This document shows positions 401 through 9,992 of a stretch of 64,000 nt of DNA, one piece after another. The translations under genes were made by a program, and so were the position numbers. The notes below the pieces were generated by a model, which did no database searches, was not told the origin of the DNA, and saw only the letters and a list, made by a program, of their open reading frames with translations. How positions within the stretch are numbered: the stretch's first letter is position 1; each line of letters begins with the position of its first letter. The DNA lies in assembly GCA_019637355.1 (NCBI GenBank), contig JAHBVT010000001.1, positions 2,883,192-2,947,191 of the forward strand. Reading direction: 5' to 3'. Source of the stretch: Gemmatimonadaceae bacterium (lineage in GTDB: Bacteria; Gemmatimonadota; Gemmatimonadetes; Gemmatimonadales; Gemmatimonadaceae).

Positions 401-3373
401 GTGCACGTCCTTCCCACCCGCGCGCGGCACATCCTCGCTGCGCTGTCGCTCACCGCGGCCCTCGCGCTGCCCGCCCTCGCACAGCAGCCGATCGACCAAG
501 AGTACACGGCCAAGATCCGCGAGCACCTGCAGGACCCGCGCATCACCACCGAGCTGGTGGACCATCTCCCGGCGCACCCGACGATCCCGACGCCGCTCAA
601 GTTCTTCGGCCGCATCGTCGGCACGCCGGGCGAACTCACCTACGCCGCGGACATCCACCGCTACTTCCAGGCGCTCGACGCCGCGTCCGACCGCGTGAAG
701 GTCTGGAAGATCGGGACCTCGGAAGAAGGCCGCGATATGTACGTGCTGGCCGTCTCCGACGAGGCGACCATCGCCAACCTCGAGCGCAACCGCGACCAGC
801 TCAAGGAGCTGACGGATCCGCGGCGCACCAGCGATGCCCGTGCCCAGGAGCTCATTCGCACGACCAAGCCGGCCTACTGGGTCACCACCGGGTTGCACTC
901 CGGTGAGACCGGCGGCCCCGAGATGGTGATGGAGCTGGCCTACCGGCTCGCCGTCTCCGAGATGCCGCTCATCCAGAACATCCGCAACAACAGCGTGGTC
1001 TTCATCACGCCGGTGCTCGAGGTGGACGGTCGCGAGCGCCAGGTGGATACCTACTACTTCAACAAGACCCGCCCCAGCGGCGAGGCGCAACTGCCGCTGA
1101 TGTACTGGGGCAAGTACGTGGCGCACGACAACAATCGCGACGGGATGGGGCAGTTCCTCGCCCTGACGCGCCACACGAACCGCTTCTTCCTCGACTGGGT
1201 ACCGCAGGTGATGCACGACCTGCACGAGTCGGTGTCGTACCTCTACACCTCCACCGGCACCGGCCCGTACAACGAGTGGCTGGATCCGATCACCGTCACC
1301 GAGTGGTGGACGATGGCGCAGGTGGACGTGATGGAGATGACCAAGCGCGGCGTGCCCGGCGTGTGGACCTACGGCTTCTACGACGGCTGGACGCCCAACT
1401 ACCTGTTCTTCGCGACGCACGCGCACAATGCCATCGGTCGCTTCTACGAAGTACAGCGCTACGGCCCGGACAACGTCGCGTCGCTGCGCGTGCCGCCACA
1501 GACGACCTCGCGCGAGTGGTTCCGCCCGAATCCGCCGCTGCCCGAGATCAAGTGGGGCCCCCGCAACTCGGTGAACATCGGCCAGTCGGGCCTGCTGTTC
1601 TCGCTCGATCACTTCGCCAGCAACCGGCGCCTGTACCTCGAGAACTACTGGCTCAAGAACAAGCGCTCGGTCGAGAAGGGACGCGCCGGCCCGACCTATG
1701 CCTGGCACGTGCCGGCCAACCAGCGCCGTCGCGTCGATGCCGTGGATGCCATCAACGAGCTGCAGCGCCAGGGCCTCGAGATCCACGTCGCCGACACCGA
1801 CTTCCAGGCCGGCAGCACGCGCGTCTCGCGCGGCGACTGGATCGTCCGCGCCGACCAGCCCTACCGCACGCTCGCCGATATGTACTTCAGCGTGCAGAAC
1901 TTCTCGCCCGCCAACCCGCGGCCCTACGACGACACCGGCTGGACCTTCCAGCTGATGCGCAACGTCGTCGTCACGCCGGTCTCCGACTCCAGTGTGCTCA
2001 CGCGCCGGATGACCCCGCTCACGGCGCCGGCACGGGCCACGGGCGGCATCAGCGGCAACGGACGCGTCGTCATCGTCGACCACACCACCGACAACGCGCT
2101 GGTCACCTTCCGCTTCCGGCTCAAGGACGTCGCGATGCGCGCGGCACAGGCGGACTTCGAGGCCGGCGGCCGCCGATTCCGCGCCGGCGCCTTCATCATC
2201 CCCGACGCCGACCTCGCGCGCGTGGGCGCCACGCTCGCGGAGCTCGGCCTGCAGGGCACGGCCGTCGCCGCGATGCCCAGCGTCGCCACGCACGACCTCG
2301 ACGTGCCGCGCATCGGCTACATCCACAGCTGGCAGCGCACGCAGGACGAAGGCTGGGTCCGCGCCGCGCTCGACACCTACGGCGTCCCTTACGAGTACTT
2401 CGCCGACCAGCGCCTGCGCGACGGCAACCTCCGCGCCCGCTACGACGTGATCATCTTCCCGCACGTCGGCGGCACGGCCCAGGCGCAGGTCAATGGCATT
2501 GCGATGACCGGCACGATGCCCCTGCCCTACAAGCGCACGCCCGAAACGCCCAACCTCGGCGCCAACGACGAGGCCGACGACATCCGCGGCGGGATGGGCA
2601 TCGAGGGCCTGATGGAGCTCTACAACTTCGTGAAGGCCGGCGGCACACTCATCGTCGAGGGCGCCACCAGCACCATCTTCCCCGAGTACAACCTCACCAC
2701 CGGCGTCTCCGTCGAGTCCCCGTCGGACCTCTTCGTGCGCGGCTCGGTGATGCGCGGCATCGTCACCGACCGCCGCAGCCCGATCGCCTACGGCTTCAAT
2801 GCACAGGTGCCGGTGTACTTCAACCAGGCGCCGGTACTCAGCGTCGCCGGCGCCGGCGGCGGCTTCGGCGGATTCGGCGGCGGGGGCGCCGGCGGCAACG
2901 CGGCGCAGCAGAACACCACGCCGATGGCCACGCGCGTGACGCTCTCGCCTTGGGATTTCAGCGCCGTCGAGGGCACGCCCACTGAACCCGCGGCCGCACC
3001 GGTTCGCGGCGGGCAGCGGCCGCCTGCCGCGACGCCGGCACCCGCAGCGGCTGGTGCCGCTGGCGGGCCACGCCCACAGGGCGCCGCAGCAGCGGGCGCC
3101 GCACCGGCAGCGGCCGCCGCCGCGCGCGCACGCGACACCCGGCCTCGCGCCATCCTCAGCTTCCCCGCCAACCCCGACCAGATGCTGCTCTCGGGCACGC
3201 TGGCCGGTGGCGAAGCCCTGGCCAACCGCGCGCAGGTCGTCGATGCGCCGGTCGGGGACGGACACGTCGTGATGTTCGGCATCCGCCCGTTCTGGCGCTG
3301 GCAGACGCACGGGACGTTCTTCCTCGGCTTCAACGCCATCCTGCACTGGAACGACCTCGACGCCGGGCGCTAG
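401..3373 (+). CDS. Secreted M14-family zinc carboxypeptidase-like protein
   Basis: A 990-residue protein starting at GTG 401, five bases after an AGGAG ribosome site at 391-395. Residues 1-28 are a signal peptide ending in ALPALAQ, so it acts outside the cytoplasm. The M14 zinc site is visible: H166 and E169 in TGLHSGETGGPE, the third ligand probably H275 (or H272) in MHDLHES, plus the substrate-binding segment HDNNRDG near 242. The catalytic domain covers about 60-400. The C-terminal half holds a glutamine-amidotransferase-like region and a long Ala/Pro/Gly linker (about 815-905). It is probably a metallopeptidase acting on external peptides; specificity cannot be read. A strong hairpin follows the stop. 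Confidence 0.88.
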   Translation: MHVLPTRARHILAALSLTAALALPALAQQPIDQEYTAKIREHLQDPRITTELVDHLPAHPTIPTPLKFFGRIVGTPGELTYAADIHRYFQALDAASDRVKVWKIGTSEEGRDMYVLAVSDEATIANLERNRDQLKELTDPRRTSDARAQELIRTTKPAYWVTTGLHSGETGGPEMVMELAYRLAVSEMPLIQNIRNNSVVFITPVLEVDGRERQVDTYYFNKTRPSGEAQLPLMYWGKYVAHDNNRDGMGQFLALTRHTNRFFLDWVPQVMHDLHESVSYLYTSTGTGPYNEWLDPITVTEWWTMAQVDVMEMTKRGVPGVWTYGFYDGWTPNYLFFATHAHNAIGRFYEVQRYGPDNVASLRVPPQTTSREWFRPNPPLPEIKWGPRNSVNIGQSGLLFSLDHFASNRRLYLENYWLKNKRSVEKGRAGPTYAWHVPANQRRRVDAVDAINELQRQGLEIHVADTDFQAGSTRVSRGDWIVRADQPYRTLADMYFSVQNFSPANPRPYDDTGWTFQLMRNVVVTPVSDSSVLTRRMTPLTAPARATGGISGNGRVVIVDHTTDNALVTFRFRLKDVAMRAAQADFEAGGRRFRAGAFIIPDADLARVGATLAELGLQGTAVAAMPSVATHDLDVPRIGYIHSWQRTQDEGWVRAALDTYGVPYEYFADQRLRDGNLRARYDVIIFPHVGGTAQAQVNGIAMTGTMPLPYKRTPETPNLGANDEADDIRGGMGIEGLMELYNFVKAGGTLIVEGATSTIFPEYNLTTGVSVESPSDLFVRGSVMRGIVTDRRSPIAYGFNAQVPVYFNQAPVLSVAGAGGGFGGFGGGGAGGNAAQQNTTPMATRVTLSPWDFSAVEGTPTEPAAAPVRGGQRPPAATPAPAAAGAAGGPRPQGAAAAGAAPAAAAAARARDTRPRAILSFPANPDQMLLSGTLAGGEALANRAQVVDAPVGDGHVVMFGIRPFWRWQTHGTFFLGFNAILHWNDLDAGR

Positions 3374-3394
3374 GCAGCGACCGGTCCGGACACG

Positions 3395-3428
3395 AAGCGG
3401 GGGCGCAGCGATCGCTGCGCCCCCGCTT
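3395..3428. terminator. Bidirectional palindromic terminator
   Basis: A perfect inverted repeat with two 16-base arms (AAGCGGGGGCGCAGCG and its complement) around AT. It lies between the convergent M14 peptidase and small secreted protein genes and can fold on either strand; only short T runs flank it. Confidence 0.75.
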
Positions 3429-3448
3429 TGCATCACCACCAGCCGAAG

Positions 3449-3886
3449 TCAGTTCACGAACAGCATCAGGCGGTATCCGCAGTTGCCCTGGCAGGTGGCC
3501 ATACTCACCTTCACGCGGATCTCGCCGGTCTGGTTTTCGAGGATGACAATCGGTACGTCATCGGGCTCGAAGTCCGAACCCACCGACTGGCTACCCTTGA
3601 AGACCTCGAGGTCGATGTCCGAACAGTTCGCGTCGCACACCGCGACGACGATGCCCGTCTTGCCAGTGGGGATCTCCAGCGTCACGTCACGCGAGGCCGA
3701 AGCCGCCAGCGCCCCGCGCGACTGCTGGGCGAGCGAGAAGCCCTGCGCGCGGAACATCGCGACCGCGCTGTCGGCCTGCGCATCGAGCAGCGGCGAGTCC
3801 GCCTGAGCCACCGCGGTCCGCGGCAGGACGGTCGCGAGTGCGACAAGGGCGACCAGCGACAGCACGGAGTGGAACGAACGACGCAT
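3449..3886 (-). CDS. Small secreted protein with two Cys pairs, unknown function
   Basis: I do not recognise this 145-residue protein. Residues 1-27 form a signal peptide ending in AVAQ. The mature part has a predicted beta-rich C-terminal half with two cysteine pairs, CDANC (near 83-87) and CQGNC (near 133-137), which could make disulfides outside the cytoplasm; the fold resembles secreted PPC-like or C2-like beta-sandwich domains, but that is only an impression. The start ATG 3886 follows GAGGTCCTGA, an acceptable ribosome site. It lies 127 bases downstream of the ATP-grasp/SET gene on the same strand and ends just before the shared terminator. It may belong to that transcript or have its own promoter. 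Confidence 0.72.
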   Translation of the reverse strand: MRRSFHSVLSLVALVALATVLPRTAVAQADSPLLDAQADSAVAMFRAQGFSLAQQSRGALAASASRDVTLEIPTGKTGIVVAVCDANCSDIDLEVFKGSQSVGSDFEPDDVPIVILENQTGEIRVKVSMATCQGNCGYRLMLFVN

Positions 3887-4013
3887 TCAGGACCTCGGGA
3901 AATGGAGTGAGGAGTGGGGGATGCCACAACCTACAGCCTCCCCGCGCGGGCTGATAGCGTGGCCGGCGACGCGATGTTCCCTGAGGTCCCCGGCTACGTC
4001 GCGGAACCGACGC

Positions 4014-5462
4014 TCACGCCGACAGCGGTGACCGTGCTGCCGCTTCGCGCGCGGTCACCGAGTTTCCCGCCGTCCCCGTGACCACGCCACGGCAACGCGG
4101 GGCTCCGCAGGCACAGTCGAAGGGCTCGGCGGCGGTGTCCAGGAACTGCGCGTAGTCGAGCGTCAGCTCTTCGCCAACGGCAATCGCACGCGCGGCCACG
4201 ACGTCGAGGCCGAGGTAGGCGGTGTTCGGGTCGCAGGAATGGTTCTGCGGCGCCCACGCCGAGGGCTCGCTGTCCCAGATCGCGTACACCTCGGCGCTGA
4301 TCGGGTACGCGTAGCGGCGGAACAGCTCCTGCTCCGTCGCGCCCCAGTGCGTCTCCACGTGACGCCGCGTCACGAGGCGGAAGGGGCGCTCCTCGCCGCG
4401 GAAGATCACCTCGCCCGCCTGCAGCGCGCGCGCCGCGACGATGCCATACCCCGCAATGGCGTCGCCGCGCATCGTGTACGCCTTGCGGCGCCGTGCGTAG
4501 CGAGCGCGCCCCTCCGCGACAATCCGCTCGAGGAACCCCGCCTGCCCCAATCCGTCCAGTCGCAGGATGTGGTCGGCCGAGCCTTCCCAGCCTTCGGGAT
4601 AGAACACGCTGCAGGTGAAGTTGATCTCGAGGAAGTACAGCGTCCCCGCCGCGTCCATCCGGAAGTCCATCCGCGCATAGCCCGTCGCGTCGAAGCTCCG
4701 GAAGACGATGCGCGCCGCGTCCTGCAGCCGCTGCACCAACGTCGGGTCCGTCACGCGCACATTGGCGTCGGGGTGCAGCTCGCTGGTCTTGAGCGCGTAG
4801 CTCTTGTAGCGGCGGCCCTCGGGAAAGCGATACTCGATCGGCGCCAGTGCCGTGCTGCGCCCGTGCCCGTCGGCGTCGCCGATGACCAACACGGTGAACT
4901 CGCGCCCCTCAATGAATTCCTCGACCAGCAGCTCCGGATAGTCCCGCTGCACCTGCGCCACCTGGCCGCGCAGCGCCTCGGCGTCGGCGACGCAGGCGTG
5001 CTCGTCCACGCCCAGCGAATCGCCGGCCTTCGCCGGCTTCACGAACAGCGGATAGCGCAGCTTGGCGCGAGCGGCCGCGGCCACGGCATCGTCGTCCGGT
5101 CCGACCACCACGTGCCGCGGCGTCGCCACGCCGGCCGAGTGCGCGACGTACTTCATCAAGGGCTTCGACGGATCGTAGAGTTGCGGCGTCGGCCCCGTGT
5201 AGGGCAGGTCCAGCTGCTCGAGCGAATGGATGACGTCCACGCTCGGCACGTCCCACTCGAGGTAGCCTTCACAGAGGTTCACATAGATGTCGAAGCCCTG
5301 CGGCTTCAGGGCCTGCAGCTGGCGGTGCACGCTGAGCTTGTGCAGGAACTCGTGGTGGACCGTGTGCCCAGGTGCCAGCGCCGCGAGGTTGCGCGGCGGA
5401 TCATAATGCCGGTAGTCCACCGTCGAGGTGGAATAGTCCGGCTGGAGGACGCAGATCTTCAC
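4014..5462 (-). CDS. ATP-grasp ligase fused to a SET methyltransferase domain
   Basis: A 482-residue two-domain protein. Residues 1 to about 315 are a D-Ala-D-Ala-ligase-like ATP-grasp fold: the nucleotide lysine sits in FVKPAKAGDSLG (K142), and the Mg-binding end reads GYARMDFR (261-268) and FLEINFTC (277-284). The usual NTxPGMT ending of true Ddl is absent, so the substrate is probably different. Residues about 325-462 are an intact SET domain: GYGIVAARALQAGE (338-351), NHSCDPNT (407-414), the catalytic tyrosine region EELTLDY (431-437) and a post-SET zinc knuckle with C450, C452 and C457. The protein could ligate an amino acid or peptide and methylate an amine. Its start overlaps the stop of the second ATP-grasp gene by four bases (ATGA), so the two are co-translated. 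Domain calls are strong; the pathway is unknown. Confidence 0.85.
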   Translation of the reverse strand: MKICVLQPDYSTSTVDYRHYDPPRNLAALAPGHTVHHEFLHKLSVHRQLQALKPQGFDIYVNLCEGYLEWDVPSVDVIHSLEQLDLPYTGPTPQLYDPSKPLMKYVAHSAGVATPRHVVVGPDDDAVAAAARAKLRYPLFVKPAKAGDSLGVDEHACVADAEALRGQVAQVQRDYPELLVEEFIEGREFTVLVIGDADGHGRSTALAPIEYRFPEGRRYKSYALKTSELHPDANVRVTDPTLVQRLQDAARIVFRSFDATGYARMDFRMDAAGTLYFLEINFTCSVFYPEGWEGSADHILRLDGLGQAGFLERIVAEGRARYARRRKAYTMRGDAIAGYGIVAARALQAGEVIFRGEERPFRLVTRRHVETHWGATEQELFRRYAYPISAEVYAIWDSEPSAWAPQNHSCDPNTAYLGLDVVAARAIAVGEELTLDYAQFLDTAAEPFDCACGAPRCRGVVTGTAGNSVTAREAAARSPLSA

Positions 5463-6613
5463 GCGGCGCGGCGCACGCCCACGCGGCTACGCTGCCGCGC
5501 GGCCGCGAGGATGGCCGCCACCGCGTGGGCGAACGGCCGGCGCGCGAACTTGAGGATCGCGCCGATGCTCGTGAACAGCTCGTCCTCCGACAGGCCGCAC
5601 TGCGCGTTCACCTCGAGCACCGCCAGCTCGCCGGTGGCGGCATCCTGCCGCAGGTCCACGCGCCCGTATCCGCGCCCACCCACCGCCGCGTACGCCGCCC
5701 AGCTCACCTCGCGGATCCGCGCCGCCTCGGCGCGCGGCACCGGCGCGTAGCGCCACAGGTCCTCGTCGCGCTCGTAGCCGCCCACCGGCGACTCCACCTC
5801 ATACATCCCCCAGAGACGGTCAAACGAAAGGAAGCGCTCTTCCATCGGCAGGCGCGAGTTGAACCGCCGCTCCACCGGCGCGTACACAAGGCGGCGCGAG
5901 GCGGCATCGTGGTTGCCCACGATGAATGCCGTGAACTCGCGGCCGGTCACGAAGCGCTCGGCCAGGACGCCGCCGCTGGTGAGGTCCCAGCCGTGATAGC
6001 CCAGGCGCAGGCGCTGCAGTTGTTCCTTGAGCTCGGCCGGCGTGCGCACCACCGACTTGGTCGTCACGCCCATACTGCCGGCGGAGACGGCGGGCTTCAC
6101 GATCAGCGGACCGCCGCCGAGGCGCGCGAACAGCGCCGCGGCACCGCGGCCGTCGCGCGGCACTTCGGCCCACGCCGCCGTCGGCACGCCGGCGCGATCG
6201 AAGGCGCGCTTCATATCCAGCTTCGACGTCGTGCCGTCGTAGAACGGCGCGTCGGCACCGGTGTAGCGCAGGCCGTGCCGCTCCAAGGCGTGGATGACGG
6301 AGAGGCCCGGCACGCCGTTGGCTTCGTCGCCATCGCAGAGATTGAAGACCGTGACGTCGTGCCGCTCGGCACTCTTGGCGATCCGCGCGATGACAGCATC
6401 ACGGTCCGCCAGTGTCACCTTCTGCCAGCGCCACGCGATGCCGAGGGCGGCGAAGGCCCGCCGATACTCGGCGCGGCTCTGCGAGAAGTCGTAGTACCAC
6501 GCGAGGTTCTCGTCGTCCGTCTCGAGATGCGGCACCAACACCCACACGAGCGGTTCGCGCGTGCGGGGGGGACTGGGGTCGCGCGGCGCCCGGACGCGCG
6601 CGGCCGTACTCAT
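5459..6613 (-). CDS. Stand-alone ATP-grasp ligase (D-Ala-D-Ala-ligase-like)
   Basis: A 384-residue ATP-grasp protein and the first gene of the pair. The N-terminal pre-ATP-grasp region has VFNLCDGDEANGVPG, comparable to NLCEGYLEWDVPS in its neighbour; the nucleotide lysine is in LIVKPAVSAGSMGVT, and the metal-binding end is GRVDLRQD followed by AVLEVNAQCGLS. As in the neighbour, the Ddl ending NTxPGMT is replaced, so cell-wall D-Ala-D-Ala synthesis is unlikely and a peptide or amino-acid ligase is more plausible. It is homologous to the ATP-grasp half of the SET fusion, suggesting duplication. The start ATG 6613 lies six bases after a CGTATT -10-like box, with no ribosome site, so it is probably leaderless. 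Confidence 0.83.
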   Translation of the reverse strand: MSTAARVRAPRDPSPPRTREPLVWVLVPHLETDDENLAWYYDFSQSRAEYRRAFAALGIAWRWQKVTLADRDAVIARIAKSAERHDVTVFNLCDGDEANGVPGLSVIHALERHGLRYTGADAPFYDGTTSKLDMKRAFDRAGVPTAAWAEVPRDGRGAAALFARLGGGPLIVKPAVSAGSMGVTTKSVVRTPAELKEQLQRLRLGYHGWDLTSGGVLAERFVTGREFTAFIVGNHDAASRRLVYAPVERRFNSRLPMEERFLSFDRLWGMYEVESPVGGYERDEDLWRYAPVPRAEAARIREVSWAAYAAVGGRGYGRVDLRQDAATGELAVLEVNAQCGLSEDELFTSIGAILKFARRPFAHAVAAILAAARQRSRVGVRRAA

Positions 6614-6619
6614 CGCCGG

Positions 6620-6625
6620 AATACG
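6620..6625 (-). promoter_or_regulatory. -10-like box of leaderless ATP-grasp transcript
   Basis: On the minus strand CGTATT is followed by CCGGCG and then ATG. The box-to-start spacing of six bases is identical to that before glnA and moeB. No clear -35 box is seen. Confidence 0.45.
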
Positions 6626-6673
6626 ATGGACATTCGAGCTATAAGCTAGCGAGGTCCGGGAAAAAGGAACACA

Positions 6674-6697
6674 GGGTGCCTAATCCCGCAGGCACCC
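6674..6697 (-). terminator. Terminator after the MATE gene
   Basis: On the minus strand the arms GGGTGCCT and AGGCACCC surround an eight-base loop and are followed by a T-rich run (TGTTCCTTTTT). It begins five bases after the MATE stop codon, so it probably separates that transcript from the ATP-grasp pair. Confidence 0.65.
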
Positions 6698-6701
6698 CGG
6701 T

Positions 6702-8102
6702 TCAGCCCGCCGGCGTGATCGAGATCGATCGCCAGGCGCCACGGCGGAACCGCCAGACGCTCAGCGCACAACGCGTGATGTGTCCGCAGAGGATCGCCAG
6801 CCAGATATCGCTCGCCGAGAGCGGCCGCAGTCCCTGCAGCGTCGTGAGCAGCCCGAGCGGCACGATGATCTGCGAGACGATCGAGATGTACAGCGGGCCC
6901 TTGGTGTCCCCGGTGCCCTGCAGACCACCGGTCACCGTGAGCGCGACCGAGATGAACAGCCCCGACACCGCCAGCCAGCGCAGCAGTTCGCTGCCGAGCG
7001 CCAGCACCGAGGGATCGTTCATCCCGAAGAGCCCGAGCAGCACGTTGGGCATCGTGAGGAACAGCGTGCCCACGACCACGGCGATGCCGACGCCGTACCC
7101 GGCCGCCACGCGCACCGCGACGGCCGAGCGTTCCGGCTTGCCGGCGCCGAGGTTCTGGCCGGCCACCGCCGCCGCGGCTCCCATCAGCCCCACGGACGTC
7201 CACGTGATGAGCGAGAAGAGCTCGGTGTAGCCCACCGCGTAGGCGGCCTGTGCCTCGGCGCTCTGCGGCAGCGAGCCGATGAACCGCAGCAACAGCACGC
7301 CGGCGACGTTCATCGCGATGCCCTGCAGGCCCGCCGGCAGTCCGAAGCGGAACAGCTGGCGGATCGTGCCCCAGTCGATGCGCCGCTGCTCGCGCGGCGG
7401 GAACTGCACCACGAGGCGGCCCGTCATCAGCATCCAGAGCCCGATGGCGCTGACCGTCACGCCCGCGATCATCGTTCCGATCGCGGCGCCTGCCACGCCG
7501 AAGGCCGGGATCGGCCCGAGCCCGCGGATCAGGATGATGTTCAGGAGCACGTTCATCACCGTCATCGCGACGCCCAGCCGCATCGGCGTCTGTGCGTCGC
7601 CGGCCGCGCGCAGCGCGCCGCCGAGCAGGAAGAACGTCATCATCCCGATGTTGCCGACGAGCATAATGCGCAGGTACAGCAGCGCCTCGGCCTGCACCGC
7701 CGGCGCGGCGCGTACGAGGTCGAGCAGCCACGGCGTGGCGAACCAGCCGATCGGCGCCAGCACGAACAGCGCGAGCAACATCGTCGCCACGAAGGCCTGG
7801 TACACCGCGTGGTTCACCAGTTCGGACTTGTCGGCGCCCGCGTGCCGTGCCACGAGCACCCCCATCCCCGTGTACAGCGACATCACGAAAACGATGACGA
7901 CGATGAAGATCTGCAGCGACACGCCCACGGCCGCGTTGCCGGCGTAGCCGACGTAGTGTCCCACCATCGCGTGGTCCACGATCCCCTGTAGCCCGCCGAT
8001 GACGTTCTGCAGCACGGTCGGCCACGCCAGCTTCCAGACGGCGCTGCTGACCGGCCCCTCGACGATCGAGCGGTCGAACTTCTTCGGTGTCGGCGCGGCC
8101 AA
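6702..8102 (-). CDS. MATE-family multidrug/metabolite exporter
   Basis: A 466-residue integral membrane protein with about twelve hydrophobic segments in two similar halves, the layout of MATE antiporters. The first helix region includes WKLAWPTVLQNVIGG, and GQNLGAGKPERS in the middle matches the conserved GQxxGAxxxxxA loop. These proteins export drugs or small metabolites in exchange for protons or sodium. The start is TTG 8102; no upstream ATG is available and the next Met lies inside the first helix. It follows the FKBP lipoprotein stop by three bases, so the two share a transcript with glnA upstream. A hairpin after the stop weakens the idea that it is co-transcribed with the ATP-grasp pair, but it could still export their product. 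Confidence 0.9.
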   Translation of the reverse strand: MAAPTPKKFDRSIVEGPVSSAVWKLAWPTVLQNVIGGLQGIVDHAMVGHYVGYAGNAAVGVSLQIFIVVIVFVMSLYTGMGVLVARHAGADKSELVNHAVYQAFVATMLLALFVLAPIGWFATPWLLDLVRAAPAVQAEALLYLRIMLVGNIGMMTFFLLGGALRAAGDAQTPMRLGVAMTVMNVLLNIILIRGLGPIPAFGVAGAAIGTMIAGVTVSAIGLWMLMTGRLVVQFPPREQRRIDWGTIRQLFRFGLPAGLQGIAMNVAGVLLLRFIGSLPQSAEAQAAYAVGYTELFSLITWTSVGLMGAAAAVAGQNLGAGKPERSAVAVRVAAGYGVGIAVVVGTLFLTMPNVLLGLFGMNDPSVLALGSELLRWLAVSGLFISVALTVTGGLQGTGDTKGPLYISIVSQIIVPLGLLTTLQGLRPLSASDIWLAILCGHITRCALSVWRFRRGAWRSISITPAG

Positions 8103-8105
8103 GGG

Positions 8106-8564
8106 CTACTCGACCTTCACGAGCCGCACGATCATCACGAGCGTGGCGTTGGGGGGCACCTTGCCGCGGCCACGCGCGCCATAGGCCAGTTCCGGCGGCA
8201 CGACCAGTTGGCGCACGCCGCCCGTGCGCATCCCGCGCAGGGCCAGTTCCATCGCGACGATGGACTGGCGCTCGCCGAGCTTGAACTGCAGCGGGCGCTC
8301 CGGTTCCGCACGGTCCACTTCGGTGCCGTCCGGCAACCGCACGACGTACGCGATGTGCACCGTGAGGCCGGGCTGTCCTTGGCGTCCGTCGCCGACGATG
8401 AAGTCGCGGAAGTAGAACCCGCGCTCGTGCTGCGTCATCTCGGCGAGATCGACCTCGGCTTCGACCGCGAACAGCTCCTGCGTGATCGGCTGCGGAGGCG
8501 GCGGCGGTGCCGCCGGTGCGCAGGCGGCCAAGGCGAGGGTCCCGAGCAGTACGGCACGGCGCAT
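8106..8564 (-). CDS. FKBP-type peptidyl-prolyl isomerase lipoprotein
   Basis: A 152-residue protein starting MRRAVLLGTLALAAC; the lipobox LAAC puts the processed Cys at residue 15, so it is a membrane-anchored envelope lipoprotein. After a Pro/Ala linker comes a C-terminal FKBP domain with VHIAYVVRLPDGTEVD, ALRGMRTGGVRQLVVPPELAYG and a terminal PPNATLVMIVRLV strand, the pattern of FkpA/MIP enzymes that catalyse proline isomerisation of folding envelope proteins. Its ATG overlaps the glnA stop by one base (TGATG), and it ends three bases before the MATE gene. The in-frame extension upstream of 8564 lies inside glnA and is rejected because the signal peptide begins at 8564. Confidence 0.9.
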   Translation of the reverse strand: MRRAVLLGTLALAACAPAAPPPPPQPITQELFAVEAEVDLAEMTQHERGFYFRDFIVGDGRQGQPGLTVHIAYVVRLPDGTEVDRAEPERPLQFKLGERQSIVAMELALRGMRTGGVRQLVVPPELAYGARGRGKVPPNATLVMIVRLVKVE

Positions 8565-9925
8565 CAGTACTTGGCCAGGTAGCGGTCCAGCTCCCACGCC
8601 GAGACCTGGGAGATGTAATCGCGCCACTCCTCGCGCTTGGCCGCGAGGAAGTGCTGCGTCACGTGCGGCCCCAGCGCCTCGCAGATCTCGGCGTCCTTCT
8701 CGAGTTCGTCGCAGGCTTCGTTGAGGTCGCGCGGCAGATCGTCGATGCGCAGGCGGCGACGCTCGCGGTGGCTCATCTCCCAGATGTTCTCGTTCACCGG
8801 CTCGCGCGACGTCGCCTCGGTGGCGATGCCGTCGAGGCCGGCGGCCAGCATCACCGCCAGCGCGAGGTAGGGGTTGGCGGCCGGGTCAGGCGAGCGCAGC
8901 TCCACCCGCGTGCCCGTCTGGCGGCGCGCCGGCACACGGATCAGCGGCGAGCGGTTGTGCAACGACCAGGCCACGTTCACCGGCGCCTCGAAGCCCGGCA
9001 CCAGGCGCTTGTACGAGTTCACCAGCGGGTTCGTGATCGCGCACATCCCGCGCGCGTGCTTGAGCAGGCCGCCGATGTAATGGTGCGCCACCGCGGAGAG
9101 CTCGAACTCACCCTTGCGGTCGTAGAAGGCGTTCTCGCCCTTCCGGAACAGGGACTGGTGCGTGTGCATCCCGCTGCCGTTCTGCCCGTACACCGGCTTC
9201 GGCATAAACGAGGCCACGAGCCCGAACTGCTGCGCCACGTGCTTCACGACAAAGCGGAACGTCGCGATGTTGTCGGCCGTCGTCAGCGCGTCGGCATAGC
9301 GGAAGTCGATCTCGTGCTGCCCGTGCGCGACCTCGTGGTGCGCCGCCTCGACCTCGAAGCCCATCTGTTCCAGCGTCGCCACGATCGCGCGCCGCGCATC
9401 TTCGCCGCGGTCCATCGGCGCGAGGTCGAAGTAGCCGCCCACGTCGTGCGTCAGCGTCGCCGCGCCTCCGTCCTGCGCCGGACGGAACAGGAAGAACTCC
9501 GCCTCCATCCCCGCGTTCATCACGTAGCCCTGCTCGGCGGCACGCGCCACCTGCCGCTTGAGCACGTGCCGCGGGTCGCCCGCGAACGGCGTACCGTCCG
9601 GCATCACCACGTCGCAGATCACCCGCGCCACGCGCTGCTGCGGATCGCCCCAGGGAAACACCCGGAACGTCCCGAAGTCGGGACGCAGCAGCATATCCGA
9701 CTCCTCCACGCGCACGAAGCCTTCGATCGACGACCCGTCGAAGAGGATGTCGCCGGCCAAGGCCTTGGCGAACTGCGACGCCGGCACCTCCACGTTCTTG
9801 TTGATGCCGAGGATGTCGGTGAACTGCAGGCGTAAGAACCGCACACCCTGCGACTCGGCGAGGGCGAGGATGTCCGTGGCGGTCGCGCCGGAAAGGTCGC
9901 CGGGCGCGGCGGGGGGCTTGGGCAT
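8564..9925 (-). CDS. glnA: Glutamine synthetase, type I alpha
   Basis: A 453-residue enzyme making glutamine from glutamate, ammonia and ATP in the cytoplasm. Hallmarks are FDGSSIEGF, MEAEFFLF, the ATP-binding KPVYGQNGSGMHTHQS and NRSPLIRVP. In place of the NLYDLPPEE adenylylation loop the sequence reads VNENIWEMSHRERRRLRIDD, as in Bacillus-type (alpha) enzymes, so control is expected through feedback or GlnR-like factors and not adenylylation. I chose ATG 9925 over the in-frame ATG 9961 because GATATT lies exactly six bases before 9925 and the later start leaves 67 bases for divergent promoters. It heads the transcript glnA, FKBP, MATE. Confidence 0.95.
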   Translation of the reverse strand: MPKPPAAPGDLSGATATDILALAESQGVRFLRLQFTDILGINKNVEVPASQFAKALAGDILFDGSSIEGFVRVEESDMLLRPDFGTFRVFPWGDPQQRVARVICDVVMPDGTPFAGDPRHVLKRQVARAAEQGYVMNAGMEAEFFLFRPAQDGGAATLTHDVGGYFDLAPMDRGEDARRAIVATLEQMGFEVEAAHHEVAHGQHEIDFRYADALTTADNIATFRFVVKHVAQQFGLVASFMPKPVYGQNGSGMHTHQSLFRKGENAFYDRKGEFELSAVAHHYIGGLLKHARGMCAITNPLVNSYKRLVPGFEAPVNVAWSLHNRSPLIRVPARRQTGTRVELRSPDPAANPYLALAVMLAAGLDGIATEATSREPVNENIWEMSHRERRRLRIDDLPRDLNEACDELEKDAEICEALGPHVTQHFLAAKREEWRDYISQVSAWELDRYLAKY

Positions 9926-9931
9926 CCGTGG

Positions 9932-9937
9932 AATATC
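9932..9937 (-). promoter_or_regulatory. -10-like box of leaderless glnA transcript
   Basis: Minus strand GATATT, then CCACGG, then ATG 9925. The transcript would start on or next to the start codon, and no ribosome site is present. The same spacing precedes moeB and the ATP-grasp gene. Confidence 0.45.
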
Positions 9938-9992
9938 GGCCGTTGCCGAGGGCCACGCCATTGGCGCGACGCACCGCGATTAGCTTTTCGTA

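Follow-up and report, generated by a model that had tools for sequence, protein, structure and literature searches.

The roles of the residues with which D-Ala-D-Ala ligases (Ddl) hold ATP, Mg2+ and D-Ala are well established, and the characterised Ddl-type members of the ATP-grasp family act on small amino acids. In E. coli DdlB numbering, the residues taken to hold D-Ala are Glu15, His63, Ser150 and those around Tyr216, together with the N-[ST]-x-P-G motif. Graspetide ligases form another branch of the ATP-grasp family than the Ddl type. The SET domains of bacteria are usually discussed as histone-modifying effectors (for example PMC3980110). A different role is documented for BurB, the methionine S-methyltransferase of the DMSP/malleicyprol pathway (PDB 9l4t, 9l4v), a SET enzyme that converts free Met to S-methylmethionine and is inactive on MTHB and MMPA (PMC12542666). 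Within its T-x-Q-x5-H strand the main chain of Thr73 contacts the substrate amine (PMC12542666). BurB, a stand-alone protein that belongs to a different pathway, is not described with ATP-grasp ligases.

Two further systems resemble the locus studied here in layout. In the animal protein TTLL12 a SET-like domain is joined to an ATP-grasp-type (TTL) domain (PMC3520985), and microviridin-type graspetide clusters combine two tandem ATP-grasp genes with a transporter (PMC8939145). The 64,000-nucleotide stretch of a Gemmatimonadaceae genome analysed here (the window) carries a pair of Ddl-like ATP-grasp genes, one of them fused to a SET domain. In the literature searched, which lacked most subscription journals, we found no publication on an ATP-grasp/SET fusion from bacteria. 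The present analysis also adds a third partner that was absent from the earlier note on this DNA, a stand-alone BurB-like SET protein that we term SET1.

Results

Both genes of the pair lie on the minus strand of the window. The upstream gene, ATPG2 (positions 5459-6613, ATG start), encodes a stand-alone Ddl-like ATP-grasp ligase of 384 aa with the motifs NLCDGDExNG, KPAVSAGSMG and LEVNAQCGLSEDE. The downstream gene, ATPG-SET (4014-5462, GTG start), encodes a fusion of 482 aa in which residues 1-325 (4488-5462) form the ATP-grasp part and residues 326-482 (4017-4487) the SET and post-SET part. When the two open reading frames were searched with Pfam, the Dala_Dala_lig_C domain (PF07478) exceeded its gathering score in ATPG2 (49.5 bits) and in the fusion (75.3 bits; cut-off 24), and the SET domain (PF00856) did so in the fusion (37.6 bits; cut-off 22.4). 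The ligases are 31% identical over 306 columns (E 1e-26), so the description of two homologous ATP-grasp proteins holds. An overlap of the two genes had also been noted; there is indeed a 4-base overlap (5459-5462), but the junction reads GTGA, not ATGA, and the fusion begins with GTG, a start that agrees with the first residue of homologues. Homologues from the best 80 loci, when aligned with the fusion, were 53-71% identical to it along its whole length, so it is not a product of chance.

To place the ligases relative to Ddl, both were aligned with the genome's own true Ddl. The ATP/Mg2+ residues Lys, RxD and ExN were kept in both ligases and their homologues, so that the catalytic residues are in place as had been proposed. 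The Ddl substrate residues, in contrast, were replaced in both ligases and in all homologues aligned: HG of Ddl reads C[ED] in both, KPSKQGS has become KPAKAGD in the fusion and KPAVSAG in ATPG2, and the N-[ST]-x-P-G motif is absent, with NFTCSV or NAQCGL at its place. Against the NCBIfam Ddl model the fusion scored 83.7 bits and ATPG2 71.4 bits, neither reaching the cut-off of 243, while the housekeeping Ddl gene, situated away from the pair (L006, 1225-2151), scored 339 bits. These results bear out the earlier statement that both proteins lack the Ddl substrate signature, and support the view that neither of them is an ordinary D-Ala-D-Ala ligase. An AlphaFold2 model of the whole fusion (pLDDT 85.9, pTM 0.76) placed the ligase part close to S. 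aureus Ddl (7u9k_B; Z 31.2, rmsd 2.5, 300 residues). The pair thus shares with the Ddl/VanA/VanG family (PF07478) the fold of the ligase part and the ATP/Mg2+-binding residues, and differs from it in the replaced D-Ala-holding residues, in scores far under the family cut-offs and in the SET domain joined to one copy.

We then examined how far the pair is conserved. A scan of 84,980 species genomes gave at least 556 relatives, of which the best 80 loci were studied; these are full-length fusions from Bacteroidota (mostly Chitinophagaceae) and Gemmatimonadota. In 79 of these best 80 loci the fusion is directly preceded on its strand by an ATPG2 orthologue; the junctions are mostly within 100 bases, with a 4-base overlap in 8 of the 68 measured and a largest gap of about 1.1 kb (L022). 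The sole locus without a second upstream ATP-grasp gene is L055 (9001-10413). Among 150 Gemmatimonadota genomes, ATPG2 was found in exactly the 12 that have the clade-1 fusion, and both genes were present in all 35 Chitinophagaceae carriers. Far from being rarely adjacent, the two genes are therefore conserved neighbours, as the earlier note had expected. An apparent fusion of both ligases in L068 was discarded, because the 865-aa open reading frame proved to be a wrong-frame upstream extension and tblastn returned two separate genes. Plasmid-borne fusions were not borne out, as the matches were partial ATP-grasp ones, none of which covered 80% of the query. In a tree of the ligase parts, the window fusion clusters with L013, which is labelled Chitinophagaceae, inside Bacteroidota, suggesting that the fusion has been transferred between Bacteroidota and Gemmatimonadota. 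One locus (L064) comes from a metagenome-assembled genome labelled Streptomyces griseus; its gene order is like that of Chitinophagaceae-like loci, and the label is therefore probably wrong.

SET1 is a stand-alone SET gene product of about 165 aa whose gene often precedes the pair in Bacteroidota, and in one Gemmatimonadota locus (L108) the fusion, ATPG2, SET1 and a gene with an ABC_membrane_3 domain all occur together. The fusion, ATPG2 and SET1 are linked in, for example, Lacibacter and Sediminibacterium. Co-occurrence was sampled in the phyla represented among the loci, namely Bacteroidota (with Chlorobi) and Gemmatimonadota. Among Chitinophagaceae, where the presence of the fusion is patchy, the fusion, ATPG2 and SET1 were found in one copy each in exactly the same 35 of 119 genomes (Fisher p 6e-31, a value inflated by shared ancestry). 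Because SET1 is unlinked to the pair in 3 of these 35 carriers, its match to them does not come from linkage alone. In Gemmatimonadota a strong SET1-like match was present in 8 of 12 fusion carriers versus 4 of 138 non-carriers (Fisher p 4e-8, likewise inflated by shared ancestry); SET1 is unlinked in most genomes of this phylum, and in 4 of the 12 carriers no SET1 match above 100 bits was found. The genome of the window has an unlinked SET1-like gene (L098, 7896-8453) about 1.24 Mb from the pair. At least four SET-domain loci were seen in this genome, namely the fusion, L098, L005 and L007.

The comparison of a SET1 profile with the PDB placed BurB first by a wide margin (84.7 bits, followed by KMT2A with 44.6), making it the best solved relative of SET1. 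The two share a T/S-x-Q-x5-H strand and a Y-x-[SA]-[TS]-E motif, which in BurB read T-x-Q-x5-H and Y-x-S-T-E; in these motifs of the window genome's unlinked copy, Thr73 is replaced by Ser, and Ser by Ala, and before HSC the Leu of BurB is Asn in SET1. From this BurB-like sequence and the shared motifs, and since BurB acts on free methionine, we infer a small molecule, probably an amino acid, as the substrate of SET1. Lysine side chains had been named as what SET domains methylate. That the fusion carries a methyltransferase domain stands, but with a BurB-related second SET protein in the cassette a small molecule would be a likelier target than protein lysine.

For the SET domain of the fusion itself, we found that GxG, NHxC, Tyr437 of the catalytic site and the zinc cysteines 410, 450, 452 and 457 are invariant in 24-27 homologues. 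The NHSC motif (Asn407-Cys410; 4233-4244, minus strand), which serves SAM binding and zinc, has N407, H408 and C410 invariant and S409 in at least 90%, and the post-SET cysteines C450-x-C452-x4-C457 map to 4092-4115 on the same strand. The module is thus complete, as had been claimed, and its motifs give no sign of a missing S-adenosylmethionine pocket. Modelled alone (AlphaFold2 pLDDT 84.0, pTM 0.72), the SET part matched ASH1L (4ypa_B; Z 11.3, rmsd 2.8, 132 residues) and BurB (9l4v; Z 10.7, rmsd 2.5, 120 residues) in a tie, and by sequence BurB came first in a near tie (51.1 versus 49.2 bits). The BurB T-x-Q-x5-H strand is absent here, and an RYA[YW]P segment takes its place. Because this strand is missing and the structural comparison ties BurB with a histone methyltransferase, the target of the fused domain could be a protein. 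The likeness to the histone lysine methyltransferases ASH1L, SETD2 and MLL comprises the fold, NHxC, the catalytic-site Tyr and the post-SET zinc cysteines, whereas the fused domain is bacterial, is joined to an ATP-grasp ligase and has no known chromatin substrate.

These comparisons bear on the possibility that the system tags proteins, in which the ATP-grasp enzymes would attach amino acids to a protein and lysines of this protein or a different one would be methylated by the SET domains, much as tubulin-modifying TTL enzymes and histone methyltransferases do. Besides its likeness to BurB, the fused SET domain also resembles ASH1L, SETD2 and MLL, and TTLL12 offers a eukaryotic precedent for the domain architecture. 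The ATP-grasp parts of the pair, however, are of Ddl type and not of TTL or RimK type, the type in which TTLL12 differs; the regular partner SET1 is closest to a free-methionine enzyme; a dedicated transporter occurs in carriers only; and no conserved gene for a target protein was found near the pair. We therefore regard protein tagging as unlikely.

Next to clade 1, to which the window fusion belongs, the ligase-part tree contains a separate second clade, whose members are 35-42% identical to the window fusion. Genomes of a Chlorobi-like family have an operon that lacks ATPG2 and runs in the order SET1, clade-2 fusion, full ABC exporter, third small SET protein; of 61 genomes of this family, exactly the same 6 contain SET1 and the fusion. 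The third SET protein, of 118-120 aa, follows the ABC exporter in L118-L123 (for example L119, 10727-11089), so that one Chlorobi-like operon holds three SET active sites. Genes for the magnesium chelatase subunits BchI and BchD adjoin one of these loci. The clade-2 fusions of L117 and of Gemmatimonadota L099-L101 have neither ATPG2 nor an adjacent SET1. Beside the fusion of L117 lie genes for an N-formylglutamate amidohydrolase (FGase), a MATCAP-family carboxypeptidase-like protein and a glutathione-synthetase-like ATP-grasp protein (3041-6872), with a gamma-glutamyltransferase on the other flank.

The ABC_membrane_3 gene follows the pair in 43 of 78 loci, in Bacteroidota and also in some Gemmatimonadota, and was present in 15 of 35 Chitinophagaceae carriers and in none of 84 non-carriers; at the sequence level searched it is absent from more than half of the carriers. 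The encoded transmembrane protein has weak similarity to a model of MsbA. We considered whether it is the membrane half of the Chlorobi-like exporter and rejected this, as BLASTP similarity was nil. In the window a MATE transporter gene (6702-8102, minus strand, MatE Pfam match) lies upstream of ATPG2. It adjoins the pair in the genus-mates L103 and L104 and not in L010, L028, L012 or other families, and glnA, FKBP and MATE genes form a block upstream of the pair on its strand (6702-9961) that is shared with L103 and L104 and does not stand beside the pair in other families. MATE was accordingly dismissed as a general partner, being a neighbour in only part of one genus and belonging to this synteny. 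For export by MATE, which had been suggested as a possibility, the position of the gene offers a link in some genus-mates alone, and that position is ordinary genus synteny; elsewhere the ABC_membrane_3 protein or a full ABC exporter is found instead. The upstream GlnA was rejected as an amidoligase partner, since it is an ordinary type I GlnA that is not near the pair in other families. No further conserved neighbour of the pair was found in the homologous loci, and none of four cassette proteins matched the PADLOC models of anti-phage defence.

The transporters also raise the possibility of a cell-envelope function, in which the ligases would build or decorate a peptidoglycan stem or a lipid-linked precursor and the transporter would flip the product. 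This fits the Ddl fold of the ligases, the full ABC exporter of the Chlorobi-like operon and the resemblance, if weak, of the transmembrane protein to the MsbA model. Against it, the cassette is patchy within families (35 of 119, 12 of 150 and 6 of 61 genomes), which argues against a core envelope role; there are no conserved Mur or glycosyltransferase neighbours, and the Ddl substrate residues are lost. An envelope role is, in our assessment, decidedly unlikely.

We also searched for a precursor peptide, as would be required if the ATP-grasp pair cyclised or extended a short precursor as in microviridins and the SET enzymes methylated the product. Some graspetide clusters do show this arrangement of tandem ATP-grasp genes and a transporter (PMC8939145). 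In the homologous loci, however, no conserved small precursor ORF was found upstream (70 stretches), between the ligases (68), between ligase and transporter (43) or downstream (75), and the ligases are of Ddl type, which graspetide ligases are not. Maturation of such a ribosomal peptide (RiPP) is thus very improbable. The cassette also differs from microviridin-type clusters in having SET methyltransferases in place of other tailoring enzymes. Finally, it is hardly credible that the pair are plain D-Ala-D-Ala (or D-Ala-D-Ser/Lac) ligases, perhaps conferring resistance, one of which carries its SET domain incidentally, since Ddl and Van ligases are their top family matches but both score far below a cut-off that another gene of the genome passes, the Ddl substrate residues are replaced in every aligned homologue and the pair co-occurs strictly with SET1.

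Discussion

The case for a dedicated pathway starts from what was observed directly: the architecture, the intact motifs, the folds, the linkage and the exact co-occurrence. On balance, we consider that the pair probably supplies the core ligases of a self-contained pathway, whose product would be a small amino-acid conjugate that carries methyl groups, resembles a di- or tripeptide and is probably exported. The earlier note had proposed a pathway to a methylated peptide or amino-acid conjugate, and two non-Ddl ligases with a methyltransferase, conserved as neighbours, agree with its core, whereas the peptide nature of the product and its export are what we would infer from context.

Such a pathway may proceed in four steps. 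First, SET1 would use SAM to methylate a free amino acid or a comparable small molecule, as its homology to BurB suggests; in the window genome it would be represented by the unlinked gene. Second, each ATP-grasp ligase would use ATP to turn a carboxylate into an acyl phosphate and would then couple this to an amine, a chemistry predicted from the Ddl fold and the retained ATP/Mg2+ residues. Third, the fused SET domain, whose site is intact, would add at least one methyl group to the presumed substrate or product of the second ligase. Fourth, judging from gene context, a lineage-specific transporter would export the product: the ABC_membrane_3 protein in Chitinophagaceae and some Gemmatimonadota, the full ABC exporter in the Chlorobi-like family and perhaps MATE here. 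If the product is cationic and methylated, export by MATE would be fitting in the genus of the window, although the MATE link there is no more than genus synteny.

A broader and more tentative proposal is a so far undescribed group of small-molecule pathways in Bacteroidota (with Chlorobi) and Gemmatimonadota in which methylation may be the dedicated task of SET domains, and two to three SET sites with one to two Ddl-like ligases would give a multiply methylated, exported conjugate. The pathway would be of a known kind, ATP-grasp plus methyltransferase, with an unusual choice of methyltransferase. Its exact inheritance as a unit in scattered environmental bacteria points to a pathway that has not been described. 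As the gene set is compact, its product should be findable through expression and mass spectrometry. That the cassette forms an exact unit of several genes in lineages apart from each other suggests that SET domains have a wider role in small-molecule biosynthesis, beyond BurB.
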